This document shows, one piece after another, positions 5,474 through 12,788 of a DNA stretch of 64,000 nucleotides. The translations under genes were made by a program, and so were the position numbers. The stretch comes from an uncultured Methylophaga sp. GTDB taxonomy: Bacteria; Pseudomonadota; Gammaproteobacteria; Nitrosococcales; Methylophagaceae. Position 1 is the stretch's first letter. Each line of letters opens with the position of its first letter. Where the stretch lies: assembly GCF_947259025.1 (NCBI RefSeq), contig NZ_CAMYKO010000004.1, positions 186,001-250,000 of the forward strand. Direction: 5' to 3'. Under the pieces are notes generated by a model that searched no databases, was not told where the DNA came from, and saw nothing but the letters and a program-made list of their open reading frames with translations.

Positions 5474-5494
5474 TTTTATTTTTTGCCGTCTTAG

Positions 5495-6375
5495 CTAGCA
5501 GGCCTTGTCGGCACGGTAACCCGGGTCACACCTCTGAATCTGGGACTGGATTGCTTCACTGCGTTCGCAATGACGGTTATAAGCGCTTACAAACTTTTCT
5601 CAGATCCGCAGCTTGGGCTGAATGCAATAAGCAAAACCCGGGCATGGTTTGAAGTGTTGGGCTTCGCGAGCTCAGCACCAACCTAGATTTATCCCGTCAT
5701 TGCGAGCCGGCCATGCCGGCGCGGCAATCCAGGCCTCACCTCTGAACCTGAGACTTGATTGCTTCACTGCGTTCGCAATGACGGTTTCAAGCCCTGACAA
5801 ACTTTTCCTTTGATCCGTAGCTTGGGCTCAATGCAATAAGCAAAACCCCGGCATAGTTTGAAGTGTTGCGCTTCGCGAGCTCAGCACCAACCTACATTTA
5901 TCACGTCATTGCGAGCCGGCTGTGCCGGCGCGGCAATCCAGGCCCCAGTTCTAAACTCGGGACTGGATTGCTTCACTGCGTTCGCAATGACGGTTATAAG
6001 CCCTGACAAACTTTTTTCTCAGATCCGCAGCTTGGGTTGAATGCAATAAGCAAAAGCCCGGCATGTTTTGAGGTGTTGGGCTTCACGAGCTCAGCACCAA
6101 CCTACATTTCTCCCGTCATTGCGAGCCGGCCTGCCGGCGCGGCAATCCAGGCCCCACTTCTGAACTCGGGACTGGATTGCTTCACTGCGTTCGCAATGAC
6201 GGTTATAAGCGCTGACAAACTTTTCTTTTGATCCGTAGCTTGGTTTGAGCCCAACAAAACCCAGGCATGCTTTGAAGCTTTGGGCTTAGCGAGCTCAGCG
6301 CCAACCTACATGTATCCCGTCATTGCGAGCCGGCTGTGCCGGCGCGGCAATCCAGGCCCCAGTTCTGAGAGTGGC
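5495..6375. repeat. Tandem array of a ~208-bp unit (about four copies)
   Basis: The string GCAATGACGG recurs at 5567, 5775, 5984 and 6193, which gives a period of 208-209 bp. Each unit has two modules. The first is an 88-89 bp inverted-repeat core starting CGTCATTGCGAGCCGGC and ending GTTCGCAATGACG (full cores at 5695-5783, 5904-5992, 6114-6201). The second is a spacer of about 120 bp containing the small palindrome TTGGGCTTCGCGAGCTCAGC and ACCAACCTACAT. The first unit has a decayed left arm and the last core (from 6318) is cut at about 6375. Short ORFs inside are by-products of the repeat. Confidence 0.9.
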
Positions 6376-6412
6376 ACTGAATTATGTGCCTGCACTCAGT
6401 TATGTCTTTGCC

Positions 6413-7897
6413 CTATCCAGATCTTACCGCACTGACTTTCCCTGCCCGCTCCCTGGCATCAGCAATATCACCCCACAGTTGTGGCACATGACTTTCCACC
6501 GGCCGCAGGTAACCGGCCACGATCATGATGCTCAGTGTGGTCATAAAGCCATAAACGCCCGGTGTCCAACCATGAGTCTGAATAAAGGCCGGCTCAGTCA
6601 GGGTCAGTCCGAACGACACGGCCATGCCTGATAAAAAGCCAATCACAGCGCCGAACTTGTTGGCTCTTTGCCAGTACAGGCCAAGTAACACCACTGGTGC
6701 CAGCACGATCATGCCCTGATAGGTCATCAGGGCCAGGAACACCAGTTGCCCTTCTTTCAGATAAGCACCGACCAACGCACCGATACTCATCACCACTACC
6801 GTCCAGCGCGCGATCAGCAGGGCTGTTTTCTCACTGATTTTGCGATTGATGACCTGGGCGATATCCCCCGAGATTGCCGTTGACATGGCATTCAGAATGC
6901 CACTGACTGTACCCAGACTGGCCGCCATCACCAGGACGGCAAACAGGGCCAACGGCCAGACACCGGCCTCACTGTGTGCCCAGAACAAGGCTTCTTCCGG
7001 GTTTTCCTGTGCAAAAGGTAATGGGTGCAGCGCCATCGATAAAATAAACAACAGCGCAAAGGATAAAATGCCCAGCACCGGGGCAAACAACACCGACTGC
7101 TTGATTGTGCGAATGCTGTCTGCCGCAAACAATTTGTTATACACCCAAGGCCACATAAAACCGCCCAGACCACTGGTGATAATGATCGCCGTCCAGTAAT
7201 TAGGCGACACATCCCAGCCCGGCCCCGGGAAGGTCATCGCAGCCGGGCTTTCATAGAACAGCCTGTCCATCGCTGCCGACAAACCGCCCAACTCGGTGAA
7301 CAGCACATAAATCAGCACACCTGAGCCCACGATCATCATGTACATCCCCTGCACGATATTCGCGGTGACCACACTGCGCATACCGCCCATGGCGACATAA
7401 AACACCACCACGAAAATACCGATAATCATACCCAGCAACGGGCTGATAAAACCCTCGGTCGCATAGTTAAAGACATAACCAATCGTGTACCACTCCATCA
7501 GCAACCACGGCACCGATAAGGCGACACCGGCAAACCCCGTCAGCACCCGGATAAAGTCACTGCGATAACGCAGGCCCAGCAACTCCGACTGGGTGCGAAG
7601 CTGATACTTCTTGCCCCAGATAAAGGTTTTCTCGGCCACCAGATACATCACCAGCAAAGTGATAATGCCGTAGGGGATCACATACATGCCGATCATGCCG
7701 AAACTCACGGCAAAGCCGGAGAACACGGTATAACCCGCGCCGACATACCAGGTCGCCAGAAAACCGAAGGTAATGCCCAGCACGCCTATGCTGTGATTCG
7801 CCGTGGCATAGTCAGCCATTGTCGACACGCCCAGTTGGCGGCGGTTGATAAAGAGAATCAGCCCCAGAAAGGCCAGTAATGACAGAACCGGAATCAT
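6413..7897 (-). CDS. Sodium:solute symporter family protein
   Basis: A 494-residue inner-membrane protein of the SSS family (PF00474), predicted to use a sodium gradient to import a small solute. Hydrophobic segments run through the whole length, and family patterns include GFLATWYVGAGYTVFSGFAV near residue 50, the MGGMRSVVTANIVQGMYM loop and the late AASLGTVSGILNAMSTAIS helix that matches the conserved sodium site. It follows the DUF3311 gene with a 4-base stop/start overlap, a pairing known for this symporter subgroup. The solute cannot be read from sequence. Confidence 0.85.
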   Translation of the reverse strand: MIPVLSLLAFLGLILFINRRQLGVSTMADYATANHSIGVLGITFGFLATWYVGAGYTVFSGFAVSFGMIGMYVIPYGIITLLVMYLVAEKTFIWGKKYQLRTQSELLGLRYRSDFIRVLTGFAGVALSVPWLLMEWYTIGYVFNYATEGFISPLLGMIIGIFVVVFYVAMGGMRSVVTANIVQGMYMMIVGSGVLIYVLFTELGGLSAAMDRLFYESPAAMTFPGPGWDVSPNYWTAIIITSGLGGFMWPWVYNKLFAADSIRTIKQSVLFAPVLGILSFALLFILSMALHPLPFAQENPEEALFWAHSEAGVWPLALFAVLVMAASLGTVSGILNAMSTAISGDIAQVINRKISEKTALLIARWTVVVMSIGALVGAYLKEGQLVFLALMTYQGMIVLAPVVLLGLYWQRANKFGAVIGFLSGMAVSFGLTLTEPAFIQTHGWTPGVYGFMTTLSIMIVAGYLRPVESHVPQLWGDIADARERAGKVSAVRSG

Positions 7898-8154
7898 CTA
7901 ACTTTCTCCACCTCAACATCCAACTCCATCGCCCCGCTACGGCTCTCCAGCAGATACCAGGAGGCAAAGAACACGGCGGCCACCAATGACAGCCCAATAT
8001 GCCAGACCATGGCAAAAGGCAGTCCCAGCCAGCGCGGTTCTATGGTGTTGGCCCAGAGGAAAACGGGCGGATAGGTGGACAGGAAGGTGGTCGCCAGGAT
8101 CAGCGTTATGAACAAGGCCGACCGGCGGCGGGAATGAGGCCGGGTAAAAGACAT
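7894..8154 (-). CDS. DUF3311-type small membrane protein, symporter partner
   Basis: An 86-residue protein with two predicted membrane helices and the pattern YPPVFLWANTIEPRWLGLPF typical of DUF3311. Such proteins sit directly upstream of SSS symporters and are presumed to be small accessory subunits. Its stop overlaps the symporter start by 4 bases, so translation is probably coupled. A direct role in transport is inferred from position only. Confidence 0.75.
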   Translation of the reverse strand: MSFTRPHSRRRSALFITLILATTFLSTYPPVFLWANTIEPRWLGLPFAMVWHIGLSLVAAVFFASWYLLESRSGAMELDVEVEKVR

Positions 8155-8242
8155 GGACTGCTCCGTTGCAGATTGATCAGTCCTTCACCTTATCAACTGA
8201 TGCCCGGATGTAAACGGGAAATTTGCCCGACCGTTCTAAACG

Positions 8243-8266
8243 TTGGGCTTCGCAGGCTCAGCCCAA
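8243..8266 (-). repeat. Small palindrome at the 3' end of the tautomerase gene
   Basis: TTGGGCT (8243-8249) pairs with AGCCCAA (8260-8266) just past the stop of the tautomerase-like gene. The sequence GTTGGGCTTCGCAGGCTCAG is a relative of the spacer palindrome in the 208-bp array. It could act as a transcript end for the minus-strand gene, though the following T-run is weak. Confidence 0.55.
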
Positions 8267-8274
8267 TCTACTTG

Positions 8275-8661
8275 CTAGACTTTAACCTTGTAGTTAAGGT
8301 CTTTAGCTTCGTCCCCCGTCATGCCTCGAAAGCCCCATTGATAGGGCTGTTGTTCTTTGATGGTGATTTCGACATCAATGGGTGCCAAAGAAAGCTGGCT
8401 TTCCAGCTCGGAGAATAAAGCTTTGATCAGGGCCTTCTGCGTCTCAGCTTTACGGCCTGCCATCATATTAATCTCGATCACGGTGTAGGCATCACTTCTG
8501 CCGCCGGGATAATAAAAATCATCCCTGTCGAGTGGCATAAAACGATGCGCCCGCTTATCTTCCGGCAAACCCAGCACGCTCTGCATGCAGCCATGAATCA
8601 CATCCGAAAGCTGGGCTTTGATGGGATTCAGTTTTTCTTTTATGCCATAAATAACAATCAT
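8275..8661 (-). CDS. Tautomerase family protein
   Basis: A 128-residue protein matching the Tautomerase_2 family (PF14552). Seen features are the start MIVIYGIKEKLNP, then KRAHRFMPLDRDDFYYPGGR, YTVIEINMMAGRKAETQKAL and the C-terminal GFRGMTGDEAKDLNYKVKV. The N-terminal catalytic Pro of classical 4-oxalocrotonate tautomerases is not at position 2 (Ile instead), as is usual in this subfamily, so the chemistry is uncertain. It stands alone between the symporter pair and a repeat-rich gap. Confidence 0.8.
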   Translation of the reverse strand: MIVIYGIKEKLNPIKAQLSDVIHGCMQSVLGLPEDKRAHRFMPLDRDDFYYPGGRSDAYTVIEINMMAGRKAETQKALIKALFSELESQLSLAPIDVEITIKEQQPYQWGFRGMTGDEAKDLNYKVKV

Positions 8662-8897
8662 GGGCTTCCCTGTTTGATTATCTAGATTCGGTGAGAGTCT
8701 AACATCCTGTTGTCGCCTTGATGGCGGGTGAGGAAACCTGCAACGAAAGCCTGAGAAGTAATAAACCAGACATCAATGGTGTCTGCCCCTTTGCTCCACT
8801 GACCTCAATATCACCCGTTGGTTGGGCAAAATGCCATGACTCCCAACAAGCCCCAGGATTGATGAGCTTCGAAGACTCAGCGCCAACCTACCCAACT

Positions 8898-8986
8898 CGT
8901 CATTGCGAGCCGGCCGTGCCGGCGCGGCAATCCAGGCTCCACTTCTGAACTTGGGACTGGATTGCTTCACTGCGTTCGCAATGACG
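8898..8986. repeat. Solitary copy of the array's 89-bp inverted-repeat core
   Basis: It starts CGTCATTGCGAGCCGGCC and ends GTTCGCAATGACG, the same ends and length as the cores at 5695, 5904 and 6114. The inner arms read GGCAATCCAG and CTGGATTGC. A decayed version of the spacer palindrome lies just before it (about 8859-8891). Confidence 0.9.
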
Positions 8987-9064
8987 GTTATTAGCACTTA
9001 GATGCTTTTTGTTAGTTATCAGCTTTGATATGACTCGAAGCATATTTCGCCTTAAGGGCGAGTC

Positions 9065-9088
9065 AGGGATTTGCGCGGCCAAATCCCT
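9065..9088. repeat. Perfect 9-bp palindrome
   Basis: AGGGATTTG (9065-9073) pairs with CAAATCCCT (9080-9088) around the loop CGCGGC. No T-run follows on either strand, so it is not an ordinary terminator. Confidence 0.8.
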
Positions 9089-9142
9089 AACTACCCAAGG
9101 CCGCCCGACTGTGCTGGCCTAACGGCTCCACTGCGTTGCTCA

Positions 9143-9207
9143 ATTTGTCTGGCGGACGGCCAAAACTCGCTGCGCTCAGACACTGCCCGTCCTTCTCCCA
9201 GACAAAT
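9143..9207. repeat. Long two-part hairpin A
   Basis: The outer stem ATTTGTCTGG (9143-9152) pairs with CCAGACAAAT (9198-9207). An inner stem GGACGG (9154-9159) pairs with CCGTCC (9187-9192). The apical part reads AACTCGCTGCGCTCAGACAC, which returns in inverted orientation inside hairpin B (9338-9404). A structured RNA or a mobile palindromic element would both fit. Confidence 0.75.
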
Positions 9208-9270
9208 CTCTGCTACTCGTCAGCACAAACGGGGAGTATTGGGGTTGAAACTCAAATCTGAGTTGTTGCC

Positions 9271-9293
9271 CCCTCTCCCTTGATGGGAGAGGG
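9271..9293. repeat. CCCTCTCCC palindrome
   Basis: CCCTCTCCC (9271-9279), a TTGAT loop and GGGAGAGGG (9285-9293), followed by TTGGGGTGAGGGTG. This is a common dispersed intergenic palindrome in proteobacteria; no gene function is implied. Confidence 0.85.
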
Positions 9294-9337
9294 TTGGGGT
9301 GAGGGTGAAAACGCCCTTTGCGCAGCCGAGCATCGGA

Positions 9338-9404
9338 AATCAGTTTGGATCAAACACGACGAGTGTCTGAGCGTAGCGAGTTTTCGTCGTGTTCCAAACT
9401 GATT
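9338..9404. repeat. Long two-part hairpin B
   Basis: The outer stem AATCAGTTTGGA (9338-9349) pairs with TCCAAACTGATT (9393-9404). An inner stem AACACGACGA (9353-9362) pairs with TCGTCGTGTT (9384-9393). The loop GTGTCTGAGCGTAGCGAG is the inverse complement, with one change, of the loop of hairpin A. The base directly before and after is the GCGCAG direct repeat (near 9320 and 9410). Confidence 0.75.
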
Positions 9405-9460
9405 GAGAAGCGCAGGGAACCCGATAGGGCAAGCTGTGGGCTGCCTTTTTGTTTGGTTCG

Positions 9461-9484
9461 TTTATTTTGGGCATGCAAAATAAA
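9461..9484. repeat. Perfect AT-rich palindrome
   Basis: TTTATTTTG (9461-9469), loop GGCATG and CAAAATAAA (9476-9484). It follows CTGCCTTTTTGTTTGG and precedes GAGCTCGGGC; this order resembles a dispersed intergenic element known from many proteobacteria. It lies about 65 bases past the stop of the minus-strand XRE gene and could serve as its transcript end. Confidence 0.7.
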
Positions 9485-9550
9485 TGAGCTCGGGCTTTAG
9501 TCCGAAATAAACATGAAGCAAGTTAGCTATCAGTATAAGTCTGAGTTCAT

Positions 9551-10657
9551 CTATTTGACTATTCTCAGTGGATTTTTTGGCATGTTTATGTCGGGCAAAA
9601 ACTCTTCAACTGTAGTCTCAGTTAAACCTAGCTTTTGTAACACAGATTTCCATTGAATTAAGCCAATACCATTAATCATTGTTTCAAGTAATGCCGGCTG
9701 CTCAAAAGGAATATCCTTATCCGAGGGCTCTCCTGTCGCCCAACCTTTTTTATTGATGTAAATATAACCAGAGCGCATTTGATCTTCGCTGATCAGCCCC
9801 AGTGATTTAGCCCTATACAGCAAAGCTTTGGAGCTAACTTTAAAATGAAGTTTTAACTTTGTTATATTCACCCAATTTAAGCTTTTCGCGCCCCGGGTTA
9901 TAGGAAAGTTTTCTATCGCTTCAGAAAAACTAATTCTCGGCATCAAGAAGGCACTTGCAAAATAATTAGCTTGCTTTTCAGTAGCTTTACAACCAGTCAC
10001 TACCCCATCATGCATGATTAGATGACCTAACTCGTGTGCTAGGTCAAACCGATATCTGCAAGGATTGTTTTTTGCATTATTTCTGATAATGATCGGTCGA
10101 CCACTTGATAATGAAAACGCATCAACTTTATCGTCAGCACCATCTATTGTGGTCACAATTACACCAGCATTTTCCAAAACAATAGTGATATCAGAAATTG
10201 GACCTAAACCTAACTCCCACTCACGTCGAAGAGACTCAGAGGCTCGCTCAATACTCTCAGTAGTAATGGATTCAAAAGTGTCCTCAAGAGTTATCTGAAA
10301 TTTAGGTAGGTCATAGTAACTTTCAATCTCTGAGATGAGTTCGGACAAGAGTTCCGCCCTTGCCATGACCATATTCGTGATCGCTTTTGTTCTTGCTCTT
10401 ACACTTCTGAAATGACACTTCTCCTCCACAACAGGCAAGATACGCTCGGTATAGAAGAAGCTTTTCTCTACGCCTAACTCAAGGCATAAAGTATCCAACT
10501 GGTAATCTCTCGGTTCTTGGCCTGACTCCATTTTAGAAATATTTTGCCGAGTTACGCCGAGAACCGAACCGACATTCTCCAGAGAAAGCCCCTTTGCTAG
10601 TCTAGCTAAACGGAGCTTATCTCCCCGATATATTTGCAGACTCTTTATTTCTCTCAT
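9551..10657 (-). CDS. XRE-family regulator fused to ImmA/IrrE metallopeptidase
   Basis: A 368-residue protein with an N-terminal XRE helix-turn-helix (about residues 13-68; SLENVGSVLGVTRQNISKME) and a C-terminal ImmA/IrrE zinc peptidase domain (COG2856). The active site HELGH is at 208-212 and the likely third ligand is Glu227 in TEKQANYFASAFLMP. Proteins of this type bind DNA and cleave a repressor or antitoxin partner on a signal, for example in ICEBs1 (ImmA) and Deinococcus (IrrE). It starts 2 bases after the upstream gene, so the two are translated together. The region is AT-rich compared with flanking genes, a sign of transfer. Its target here is unknown. Confidence 0.85.
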   Translation of the reverse strand: MREIKSLQIYRGDKLRLARLAKGLSLENVGSVLGVTRQNISKMESGQEPRDYQLDTLCLELGVEKSFFYTERILPVVEEKCHFRSVRARTKAITNMVMARAELLSELISEIESYYDLPKFQITLEDTFESITTESIERASESLRREWELGLGPISDITIVLENAGVIVTTIDGADDKVDAFSLSSGRPIIIRNNAKNNPCRYRFDLAHELGHLIMHDGVVTGCKATEKQANYFASAFLMPRISFSEAIENFPITRGAKSLNWVNITKLKLHFKVSSKALLYRAKSLGLISEDQMRSGYIYINKKGWATGEPSDKDIPFEQPALLETMINGIGLIQWKSVLQKLGLTETTVEEFLPDINMPKNPLRIVK

Positions 10658-10659
10658 TG

Positions 10660-11322
10660 CTACTCATCCAAATGTTTTGTTCTTTCTTGTTCTTTTGCTT
10701 TTAATATTACTTGTTTTCTTTCTACCGGCTTTTCTTGAATTAATTGCTCGCTAATTGGACGAATCTTGTTGCTGAAATTATCATCCGAATACCAGAGCGA
10801 TACTAGTGAGTTATTTGTTGGGTGATAGCCTGCTAAAGCCACTTTGAAGTCATCTTCAATATCAACAATATCTTCACCAATACTAATATCTGTTGGTGCG
10901 ACAACCATTAGTCGCCAATATAACTCCTGTGTAGCAAAATCAATTTCATCACGATCTTCTAGAAGAAGAATTAGCTGGTCTTTCTCAATTTCGTTCTGAT
11001 TAAAGATCTTCACTCGCTTTTTTGGTGAGCGAGGTTCATCTCTAAAAACACGCAATGGTATGTTGTTGATCCTTGGTACATAATCCATTCCACTACTCGC
11101 TAAAGTCAACCATGGCTTATCAGTATCACGATTAAGCTTTATAAATAGCTGTCTAAGACGTCCATGAAGTGTAGTCTCAAATGTGTAACGATCATCATAC
11201 TCACCCGTATTCGAGAGCCTTGTCTGCTCTGCTACCTCTAAGATTTCTCTGGAGAGTATATTCAGATGGTCTTCATCAAAAGCTGAGCAAACTTCAAAAG
11301 GTGATTCAAAATCTGTTGACAT
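10660..11322 (-). CDS. Unknown 220-residue protein, first gene of the XRE-peptidase cassette
   Basis: I do not recognise this protein. It is soluble (no signal peptide, no membrane segment), acidic in the first half, with a helical N-terminal part containing TTLHGRLRQLFIKLNRDTDK, a mixed middle (VPRINNIPLRVFRDEPR, RVKIFNQNEIEK) and a charged, probably helical tail (EQERTKHLDE). AGAGGT sits 5 bases upstream of the ATG. The close spacing to the XRE-ImmA gene suggests they act together. It could be the substrate of the peptidase, a toxin or antitoxin, or an effector; nothing in the sequence decides this. Confidence 0.7.
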   Translation of the reverse strand: MSTDFESPFEVCSAFDEDHLNILSREILEVAEQTRLSNTGEYDDRYTFETTLHGRLRQLFIKLNRDTDKPWLTLASSGMDYVPRINNIPLRVFRDEPRSPKKRVKIFNQNEIEKDQLILLLEDRDEIDFATQELYWRLMVVAPTDISIGEDIVDIEDDFKVALAGYHPTNNSLVSLWYSDDNFSNKIRPISEQLIQEKPVERKQVILKAKEQERTKHLDE

Positions 11323-11354
11323 AAGAGACCTCTAATCATGGGAAAATCGCAGTA

Positions 11355-11394
11355 TGTCAACCAGATTAGTGCTATATCTGTCTTTTGTCAACCA
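11355..11394 (-). promoter_or_regulatory. Direct-repeat operator/promoter of the XRE cassette
   Basis: The 9-mer TGTCAACCA occurs twice on the plus strand (11355-11363 and 11386-11394), 31 bases apart, or about three helical turns. On the minus strand each copy gives TTGACA, a perfect -35 hexamer. The upstream one is followed after 17 bases by TAATCT as a possible -10. The second copy would then lie just past the -10, where a repressor would block transcription. An XRE protein binding its own promoter here is inferred. Confidence 0.5.
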
Positions 11395-11423
11395 AAAAGG
11401 TGGGTTATTTTTATTTTGTAAAC

Positions 11424-12788
11424 TTATTTTTTCTTAACCGGCCTCTTCCATCCCTCAACCGTCTTCTGCTTAGAGACAGTCAAAGTCAAAGCCTCACCTG
11501 GTGCGGTCTTCCGAATCGTAGACCCAGCCCCAATCGTCGCCCCATCCTCAACCGTAACAGGCGCCACCAACTGTGTATCAGACCCCACAAACACCCGATC
11601 CCCAATCACAGTGCGGTGCTTATTGGCCCCATCATAGTTACAGGTAATCGTCCCGGCCCCAATATTCACATCCGCCCCCATATCGGTATCACCGATATAG
11701 CTCAGGTGATTCACCTTGGAACCCAGGCCGATATTGGCATTTTTGACTTCGACAAAGTTACCCACCTTGGCCTTGGCTGCCAGAACGGAACCGGGACGCA
11801 AACGAGCATAAGGACCAACCGCACAGTCGGGGCCAACCTCGGCATTTTCGATAATGCTGTGGGGCAGGATGTCGGCACCTTCATGAATCACGCTGTTGAT
11901 AATGATGCAATTGGCACCGATGCTGACGTTATCAGCAATGGTGTTGCTGCCTTCGAAGATCACGTTGATATCCACCGTGATATCTTGACCGGCATTGATA
12001 GGACCGCGGATATCAATCCGTGCCGGGTCACGCATGGTGACACCGGCCATCATCAGATCGGTGGCGGTTTTCTGCTGGTAGTAGCTTTCCAGTTCGGCGA
12101 GTTGGACGCGGTTATTAACGCCGGCGACTTCCATCTCGTCATCACAGACCACGGAGCTGATCTCGATGCCCTGCTCGACAGCATTGGCGATCAGGTCGGT
12201 CAGGTAATACTCGCCCTGGGCATTGTTGTTATCGAGTTGAGACAAAGCCTCGTCCAGCCATTTGGCCGGGATGCACATGATGCCGGTGTTGATCTCGTTG
12301 ATCAGTTTGGTTTCTTCGTCAGCATCTTTTTCTTCGGTGATTCGCAACATTTTGTCATCGAAGTCGCGGACAATACGGCCATAGCCGGTCGGGTTATCCA
12401 ATAAGGCCGTCAGCACCTTCAAGCTGTTCTGATCACCGGAATCAATCAGTGCTTCCAGCGTGTCGGTTTCTATCATCGGCACATCGCCATAGAGCACCAG
12501 TACCTGATCCGATTTCTGAAAGAAGGCTTTGGCCTGCTCCACCGCATGGCCGGTGCCTTTTTGCTCATGCTGCATCACGGTGTTGATGCCCTGCTGCTCC
12601 AGATAGGGCACCACTTCATCGGCACCATTGCCACAGACCACGGCCATTTCGGTTGGGTTAAGCATGTTGGCGGTGTCGATAACATGCTGCAGTAATGGCT
12701 TGCCGCCCAGGGTATGCATGACCTTGGGCTTGTTGGATTTCATGCGGGTGCCTTTACCGGCGGCGAGGATGATGATGGATAGTGACAT
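11424..12788 (-). CDS. glmU: Bifunctional UDP-GlcNAc pyrophosphorylase / GlcN-1-P acetyltransferase
   Basis: A 454-residue cytoplasmic enzyme that acetylates glucosamine-1-phosphate and then joins it to UTP, giving UDP-GlcNAc for peptidoglycan and LPS. The N-terminal nucleotidyltransferase motif LAAGKGTRMKSNKPKVMH is at residues 8-25, VLYGDVPMIE near 100, and the C-terminal half is a left-handed beta-helix of hexapeptide repeats ending in GDRVFVGSDTQLVAPV and GAGSTIRKTAPG. The length is that of the family. A TAAAAT box about 45 bases before the start may be its -10. In this lineage glmU normally follows atpC; here a repeat insertion separates them. Confidence 0.96.
   Translation of the reverse strand: MSLSIIILAAGKGTRMKSNKPKVMHTLGGKPLLQHVIDTANMLNPTEMAVVCGNGADEVVPYLEQQGINTVMQHEQKGTGHAVEQAKAFFQKSDQVLVLYGDVPMIETDTLEALIDSGDQNSLKVLTALLDNPTGYGRIVRDFDDKMLRITEEKDADEETKLINEINTGIMCIPAKWLDEALSQLDNNNAQGEYYLTDLIANAVEQGIEISSVVCDDEMEVAGVNNRVQLAELESYYQQKTATDLMMAGVTMRDPARIDIRGPINAGQDITVDINVIFEGSNTIADNVSIGANCIIINSVIHEGADILPHSIIENAEVGPDCAVGPYARLRPGSVLAAKAKVGNFVEVKNANIGLGSKVNHLSYIGDTDMGADVNIGAGTITCNYDGANKHRTVIGDRVFVGSDTQLVAPVTVEDGATIGAGSTIRKTAPGEALTLTVSKQKTVEGWKRPVKKK

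Follow-up and report, generated by a model that had tools for sequence, protein, structure and literature searches.

In CBASS, an HTH repressor (CapH) is paired with an M78 peptidase (CapP), and SocAB of Caulobacter targets the sliding clamp. RosmerTA, which goes back to Millman et al. 2022 (as cited in PMC10440598 and PMC12795458), is a defence-associated family with diverse toxins, two of which have proposed modes of action in the literature that we found, one at the membrane and the other at the sliding clamp. Kita RmrT_D5 depolarises membranes (PMC10440598), and targets therefore differ within the Rosmer family. The Streptococcus pneumoniae Rosmer toxin RipA is reported to act on DnaN, whose hydrophobic pocket is the site of the suppressor changes H183, L185, Y249, Y333 and L371, and its antitoxin RipB is an XRE-ImmA protein (PMC12795458, where SocB is also named). 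In streptococci, two RosmerTA homologs showed narrow activity and gave no protection from the majority of the tested phages (PMC12322248). PMC12795458 was the only paper in the open-access literature that we found to tie a Rosmer toxin to DnaN, and its main text has 0 occurrences of either "motif" or "clamp-binding motif"; no account of RosmerTA together with the sliding clamp was found in that literature, an absence that is weak evidence in itself.

Here we analyse a two-gene cassette in a 64,000-nucleotide stretch of DNA (the window) from an uncultured Methylophaga species, whose features are collected in the table. A sequence-only reading had placed at 9551-11394 an AT-rich, possibly mobile pair comprised of an XRE-ImmA gene and a partner of unknown family. 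The pair is indeed present, as two minus-strand ORFs separated by a gap of 2 bases with the 220-aa gene first, though the coding part ends at 11322 and the proposed end takes in leader sequence. As described there, it lies between glmU and, on its other flank, a repeat-rich gap at about 8700-9550, and its GC content is lower than that of its surroundings: 0.394 (39.4%) versus 0.535 (53.5%) in the remaining window. Among 1772-bp windows taken at 250-bp steps, the one at 9501-11272, lying over the cassette, is the only one to be equally AT-rich. No promoter-like site is listed in the rmrT leader and hence we claim no promoter there. The repeat of 8880-9010 also occurs as five copies in series at window positions 5487-6383.

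Table. Features of the rmrT-rmrA cassette and its flanks (positions in the window)
Feature	Position	Strand	Basis
rmrT, putative RosmerTA toxin, 220 aa	10660-11322	-	PADLOC RmrT, PHROG 5786
rmrA, XRE-HTH / ImmA-IrrE (M78) antitoxin-repressor, 368 aa	9551-10657	-	PADLOC RmrA, Pfam
QLILL, putative beta-clamp-binding motif, RmrT residues 116-120	10963-10977	-	strict published motif
HELGH metallopeptidase signature, RmrA residues 208-212	10022-10036	-	conserved in RmrA alignments
Leader, glmU stop to rmrT start; glmU-side end of variable slot	11323-11423		congener homology boundary
Palindromic repeat, other end of slot	9439-9508		homology to congeners resumes there
glmU	11424-12788		name from sequence, not from family scan

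The second gene product matches the PADLOC RmrA profile PDLC03943 (E 3.4e-99), and Pfam recognizes in it HTH_3 (PF01381, E 6e-7) and Peptidase_M78 (PF06114, E 2e-18), i.e. an N-terminal XRE HTH and an M78 metallopeptidase with the HExxH signature, as a RosmerTA antitoxin requires. It shares 36-46% identity with the other aligned members, and H208, E209 and H212 are invariant in 12/12 aligned RmrA proteins and in 17/17 of a second alignment. While the HTH-HELGH peptidase had thus been correctly recognized from the sequence, the idea that it acts on a separate repressor gene did not hold, since the metallopeptidase of RmrA is fused to its own HTH in one protein. RmrA also matches the NCBIfam model NF052239 (spr1629/RipB) with E 2e-49 over most of its length, at 168.5 bits, under the curated equivalog cut-off of 335. 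Foldseek searches with its structural model (pLDDT 83) recovered CapP (7t5t, E 1.7e-5) and IrrE (3dti, E 2e-4), and its HTH resembles that of CapH (7t5u, E 6.6e-7). The M78 part further resembles a transcriptional regulator of M. tuberculosis (6d2s, presumably RamB; Z 11.8, rmsd 2.8, 157 residues aligned), which would fit a pair of XRE-ImmA regulators with a non-toxic role. Such a role, or the alternative that the pair is a decaying remnant, appears quite improbable given that both frames are open, that HELGH is kept and that the slot occupied by this AT-rich cassette holds toxin- and defence-like genes elsewhere (see below).

The first gene product, far from being of an unknown family, matches the PADLOC RmrT profile PDLC03929 (E 2.2e-29, residues 7-216) and PHROG 5786 (E 6.9e-26); no Pfam or NCBIfam family was matched at E <= 1. 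As PADLOC names the partner RmrT beside an RmrA, the cassette is, by its profile matches, a RosmerTA toxin-antitoxin system, in keeping with the defence-type module lacking a housekeeping role that had been proposed. RmrT is 14-29% identical to the other aligned members, and L20 and W177 are the only invariant residues in the 11-member alignment. Sequence searches of the PDB returned nothing, or only matches with E about 1; neither single-protein scans of genome and viral contigs nor a tblastn search of phages with RmrT gave a relative, and hence the family was reached through plasmid matches and alignments. Viral single-protein scans with four other toxins (those of loci L010, L012, L015 and L132; L and G numbers denote loci and genomes of this study) likewise found none.

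The association of this toxin with an XRE-ImmA gene recurs elsewhere. A tblastn search of plasmids with RmrT gave 6 records, all six of which also match RmrA and carry the RmrA gene directly downstream of that for RmrT, the toxin frame being interrupted in one (L008, Providencia). Among viral-contig loci, a gene with HExxH directly follows the toxin in 12/14, the exceptions being L018, which ends with the toxin, and L029, which has a short toxin frame. A second count gave 43/45, with the two misses, L029 and L042, both having short toxin frames; this count repeats L029, and 31 of its 45 loci are near copies from one query. Five loci that were first reached via RmrA (L012-L016) all encode an upstream partner from this same toxin family, and the alignment that includes them has 11/11 members matching PDLC03929. 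Partners of the more divergent RmrA genes in L128, L129, L131, L132 and L133 match other RmrT profiles. In Paenibacillus phage Dash (L130:1929-3763) no RmrT-like gene lies upstream of the RmrA-like one; the gene next downstream is, by eye, SocA/Panacea-like.

Among genomes the cassette is sparsely distributed. RmrT was found in the source genome alone among the 58 searched, and its profile matched in 2/369 genomes of a sample of the class, namely the source and one other. RmrA-like genes are present in 3/24 genomes of the genus, and the pair is found at none of 18 congeneric glmU loci (0/18), so that its absence between the palindromes and glmU in relatives is borne out and the cassette is accessory. 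In one congener, G004 (L116, contig 193, about 8090-9860), there is a RosmerTA pair that appears by eye to be nearly identical to one from Proteus mirabilis (L013) and has the same upstream neighbour; this is a sign of transfer and suggests a shared transferable element. Another genome, G003, has an XRE-ImmA gene followed by a gene that looks PIN-like by eye (L117:3988-5536), i.e. a different pairing of the same type of antitoxin.

To place the cassette in its genomic context, we compared the region downstream of glmU across the genus. The gene was found in 19/23 congeners, and the survey covered the downstream stretch from 18 of them (18 of 20 regions; L098-L115), with the glmU of G004 lying at a contig end and the stretches of L109 and L110 shortened by contig ends. 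On the glmU side, the homology of the window to these 18 loci ends at 11406-11431; it resumes at window positions 9506-9508 in four loci (L098, L103, L104 and L109) and further in elsewhere. The first ORF of at least 90 aa after glmU has a GC content of 0.33-0.42 in 15/18 loci, the exceptions being L106, L111 and L115. Family scans, which covered all of these loci but L106 and L115 and included PADLOC for 9 of the proteins, recovered a diverse set of occupants: a PDC-S31 protein by PADLOC (L098), HNH with SRA (L103 and L113, the SRA of L103 being under the cut-off), a PemK-like match (L104, E 5e-5), FRG/PDC-S15 (L107), T5orf172 (L108), and a SocA/Panacea antitoxin next to which a 146-aa protein is encoded on the opposite strand (L112). 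Matches in L100 and L111 were under the cut-off, and no Pfam family was matched by the occupants of L098, L099, L101, L102, L105, L109, L110 and L114. In L115 the slot looks empty, as the repeat starts 91 bp past the glmU stop, though the glmU match of that genome has internal stops. On contig 74 of G011 (L094, L095) the glmU match is split and has internal stops (2 TAG, 1 TGA), perhaps an assembly error. Taken together, the region after glmU looks like an exchangeable slot holding mostly AT-rich, varied genes, several of them defence- or toxin-antitoxin-like. Hence, the suggestion of a mobile module stands in part: mobility is inferred from the patchy distribution and the exchangeable slot, while the pair itself holds no mobility gene.

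The palindromic repeat that bounds the slot follows glmU in 16/18 congeneric loci, L099 and L110 being the ones without it; its pattern, with at most 2 mismatches, occurs 0-7 times per genome, with 7 occurrences in the source genome. The arms of the repeat (window 9439-9487 and copies L120-L127) covary by eye, with TTTAT/ATAAA and TTTCT/AGAAA. In the source genome 3 of the 8 other long copies adjoin an AT-rich gene (GC 0.38-0.42). One of these three genes is a CAP12/Pycsar TIR-domain gene (L126:2296-3069; PF10137, E 3e-33; GC 0.39). We considered integron attC sites as an identity for the repeat and dropped this by eye against the attC motif. A mobilising role of the repeat was also considered, but that it recurs after glmU (16/18) shows a conserved boundary and not a mechanism. 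Near another gene, glmS, lies attTn7, the site of Tn7. No description of a hotspot downstream of glmU was found in the open-access literature (open papers only, and thus weak evidence). The slot beside glmU offers a compact place in which to seek new defence candidates in this genus.

We then turned to what the toxin might do. The RmrT model has a mean pLDDT of 73 and is confident through residue 100 (73-96 in 10-residue blocks), where it forms a core of two helices and strands; the blocks 101-110, 111-120 and 121-130 have a pLDDT of 57, 54 and 49, with 111-122 drawn as a helix. Fold searches gave nothing significant. Restriction enzymes do appear among weak VIA-align matches (3ndh, Z 4.7, rmsd 4.6, 135 aligned; 9y1l, Z 4.5, rmsd 4.5, 96 aligned), with HincII, SSO0001, CinB and MGME1 lower in the list, the last three of which we take to be PD-(D/E)XK proteins, and a PD-(D/E)XK-like protein from a phage tops the BFVD matches (E 0.19, prob 0.08). 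These matches raise the alternative that this RosmerTA has another kind of toxin, such as a nuclease-like enzyme, with QLILL being incidental. However, the nuclease rows are tied with or below the unrelated phosphatase CysQ (5djg; Z 5.0, rmsd 4.9, 119 aligned), Foldseek has no match for RmrT at E <= 0.001, the acidic residues D80 and D95 vary within the 11-member alignment, which shows no conserved acidic set, and a nuclease would leave unexplained the motif excess described below; we therefore regard this alternative as unlikely. Far less probable still is a toxin acting on the membrane: an RmrA-paired toxin, Kita RmrT_D5, is reported to do so (PMC10440598), but RmrT is without a hydrophobic stretch, its maximum 19-residue Kyte-Doolittle mean being 0.9, an index that does not separate it from the toxin of Gordonia phage Eyes (0.92).

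The low-confidence stretch of RmrT at residues 101-130 contains IEKDQLILLLEDRDE, in which QLILL fits the canonical beta-clamp-binding motif and is followed by acidic residues. Such motifs have the form Q-aliphatic-x-[L/M]-[F/L], or the same with one extra residue before the last, and are found in loops or tails, flanked mostly by acidic residues (PMC11139829); our strict pattern, Q[AVLIM]x[LM](x)[FL], follows this source. We examined it in 37 toxins, reduced to 29 by removing redundancy at 60% identity, which came from the six RmrT plasmids, from 12/222 plasmid and 8/25 phage-collection records with an RmrA match, from one plasmid reached via a toxin search, from one class genome and from contig scans. 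Excluded before this count were L130 (no partner), L152, the interrupted or short L008, L029 and L042, and the near copies L135-L142; also left out were L018, L019, L022, L025-L027, L031, L033, L035-L037, L039-L041 and L044-L074, most of which are close to counted loci. Nine of the 29 (L143-L151) were assigned by their position upstream of an RmrA gene and not by profile; six of these join profile-checked clusters by BLAST, and L147, L149 and L151 do not.

The strict motif is present in 11/29 toxins as against 1.79 expected, and 0/2000 shuffles reach 11, a set that is not one of independent sequences as 18 of the 29 form one BLAST cluster, whose first members suggested the motif idea. A relaxed motif is present in 18/29 versus 6.03 expected by shuffling. 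The RmrA proteins of the same loci show no such excess (strict 3/29, 4.68 expected; relaxed 14/29, 13.06 expected). When the first residue of the motif is replaced by N, E, K, S or D as a control, 0-3 of the 29 match, and the reversed motif matches 2/29; the E and N matches include EISLF and NLELF at this same site, which are perhaps variants. The position is also shared, with the strict motif starting in 10 full-length toxins at residues 104, 108, 112, 113, 113, 113, 116, 125, 126 and 129 (in L011, the remaining carrier, the frame as annotated is short), and with the relaxed motif at the site in 17 of its 18 carriers, L149 having it at residue 192. The strict-motif toxins span four clusters without BLAST linkage, one of which is L147 alone. 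Conversely, the strict motif is absent from 18/29 toxins and the relaxed one from 11/29; an enterobacterial branch of this same RmrT family has DQLF instead, with neither the strict nor the relaxed motif. The helix drawn at RmrT residues 111-122, although of low confidence, also speaks against the clamp reading. Two toxins outside the 29 may be added: the Eyes partner (L152) has no strict motif, and that of G004 has QMELF, though being almost the L013 toxin it is hardly independent.

The motif statistics, together with the experiment on another Rosmer toxin, make a sliding-clamp mechanism likely for RmrT. Our preferred reading is that this is a RosmerTA in an exchangeable slot, the toxin of which blocks the sliding clamp via QLILL and is restrained by RmrA, and on balance we hold this to be probable. 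What is observed is the family, the pairing in an operon, the patchy distribution, and the presence and position of the motif; from these we infer a toxic, clamp-binding RmrT, an RmrA that represses and neutralises, and a phage trigger. RmrA, by way of its HTH and M78 metallopeptidase, would repress the operon and hold RmrT in check. If RmrA were lost or switched, for instance upon phage infection, the freed RmrT might dock QLILL in the hydrophobic pocket with which the clamp (DnaN) binds proteins, where it would block access of the polymerase, and replication would stop.

A wider version of this proposal is that most soluble RosmerTA toxins, across several RmrT groups dissimilar by BLAST, are sliding-clamp inhibitors sharing a clamp-binding peptide at a similar position in a protein that otherwise varies, which we advance tentatively and regard as a little short of probable. 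A single target for all Rosmer toxins is not required, given the membrane depolarisation by Kita RmrT_D5 and the Eyes partner without the strict motif. Were the wider version true, RosmerTA would serve generally as a defence by shutting down replication at the clamp; the shared motif would provide one testable mechanism for many Rosmer toxins, link the pneumococcal RipA result to phage and plasmid systems, and help explain how dissimilar toxins are paired with one antitoxin family. What appears to be new here is the occurrence of a canonical clamp-binding motif in RmrT and in several groups of Rosmer toxins.

In comparison with known systems, RmrA has both domains of CapH-CapP, its HTH resembling CapH and its M78 part CapP; it differs in joining them in one protein, and no cyclase gene was detected by the family scans made of the neighbours at 6413-12788. 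SocAB of Caulobacter shares the target proposed for RmrT, namely the sliding clamp, but uses a SocA/Panacea antitoxin. RipAB (Spr1630/Spr1629) resembles the cassette in that RmrA matches the spr1629 model and that the DnaN pocket is the proposed target of RipA, itself a Rosmer toxin, the comparison being one of antitoxin sequences; the differences are that RmrA falls far below the equivalog cut-off and that the action of RipB depends on ClpX (PMC12795458). With RosmerTA the cassette shares the toxin-first two-gene operon, the HTH-M78 antitoxin and matches to both PADLOC profiles, while its toxin and antitoxin differ from the other aligned members as the identities given above show; the locus is new, and the system is of a known kind.
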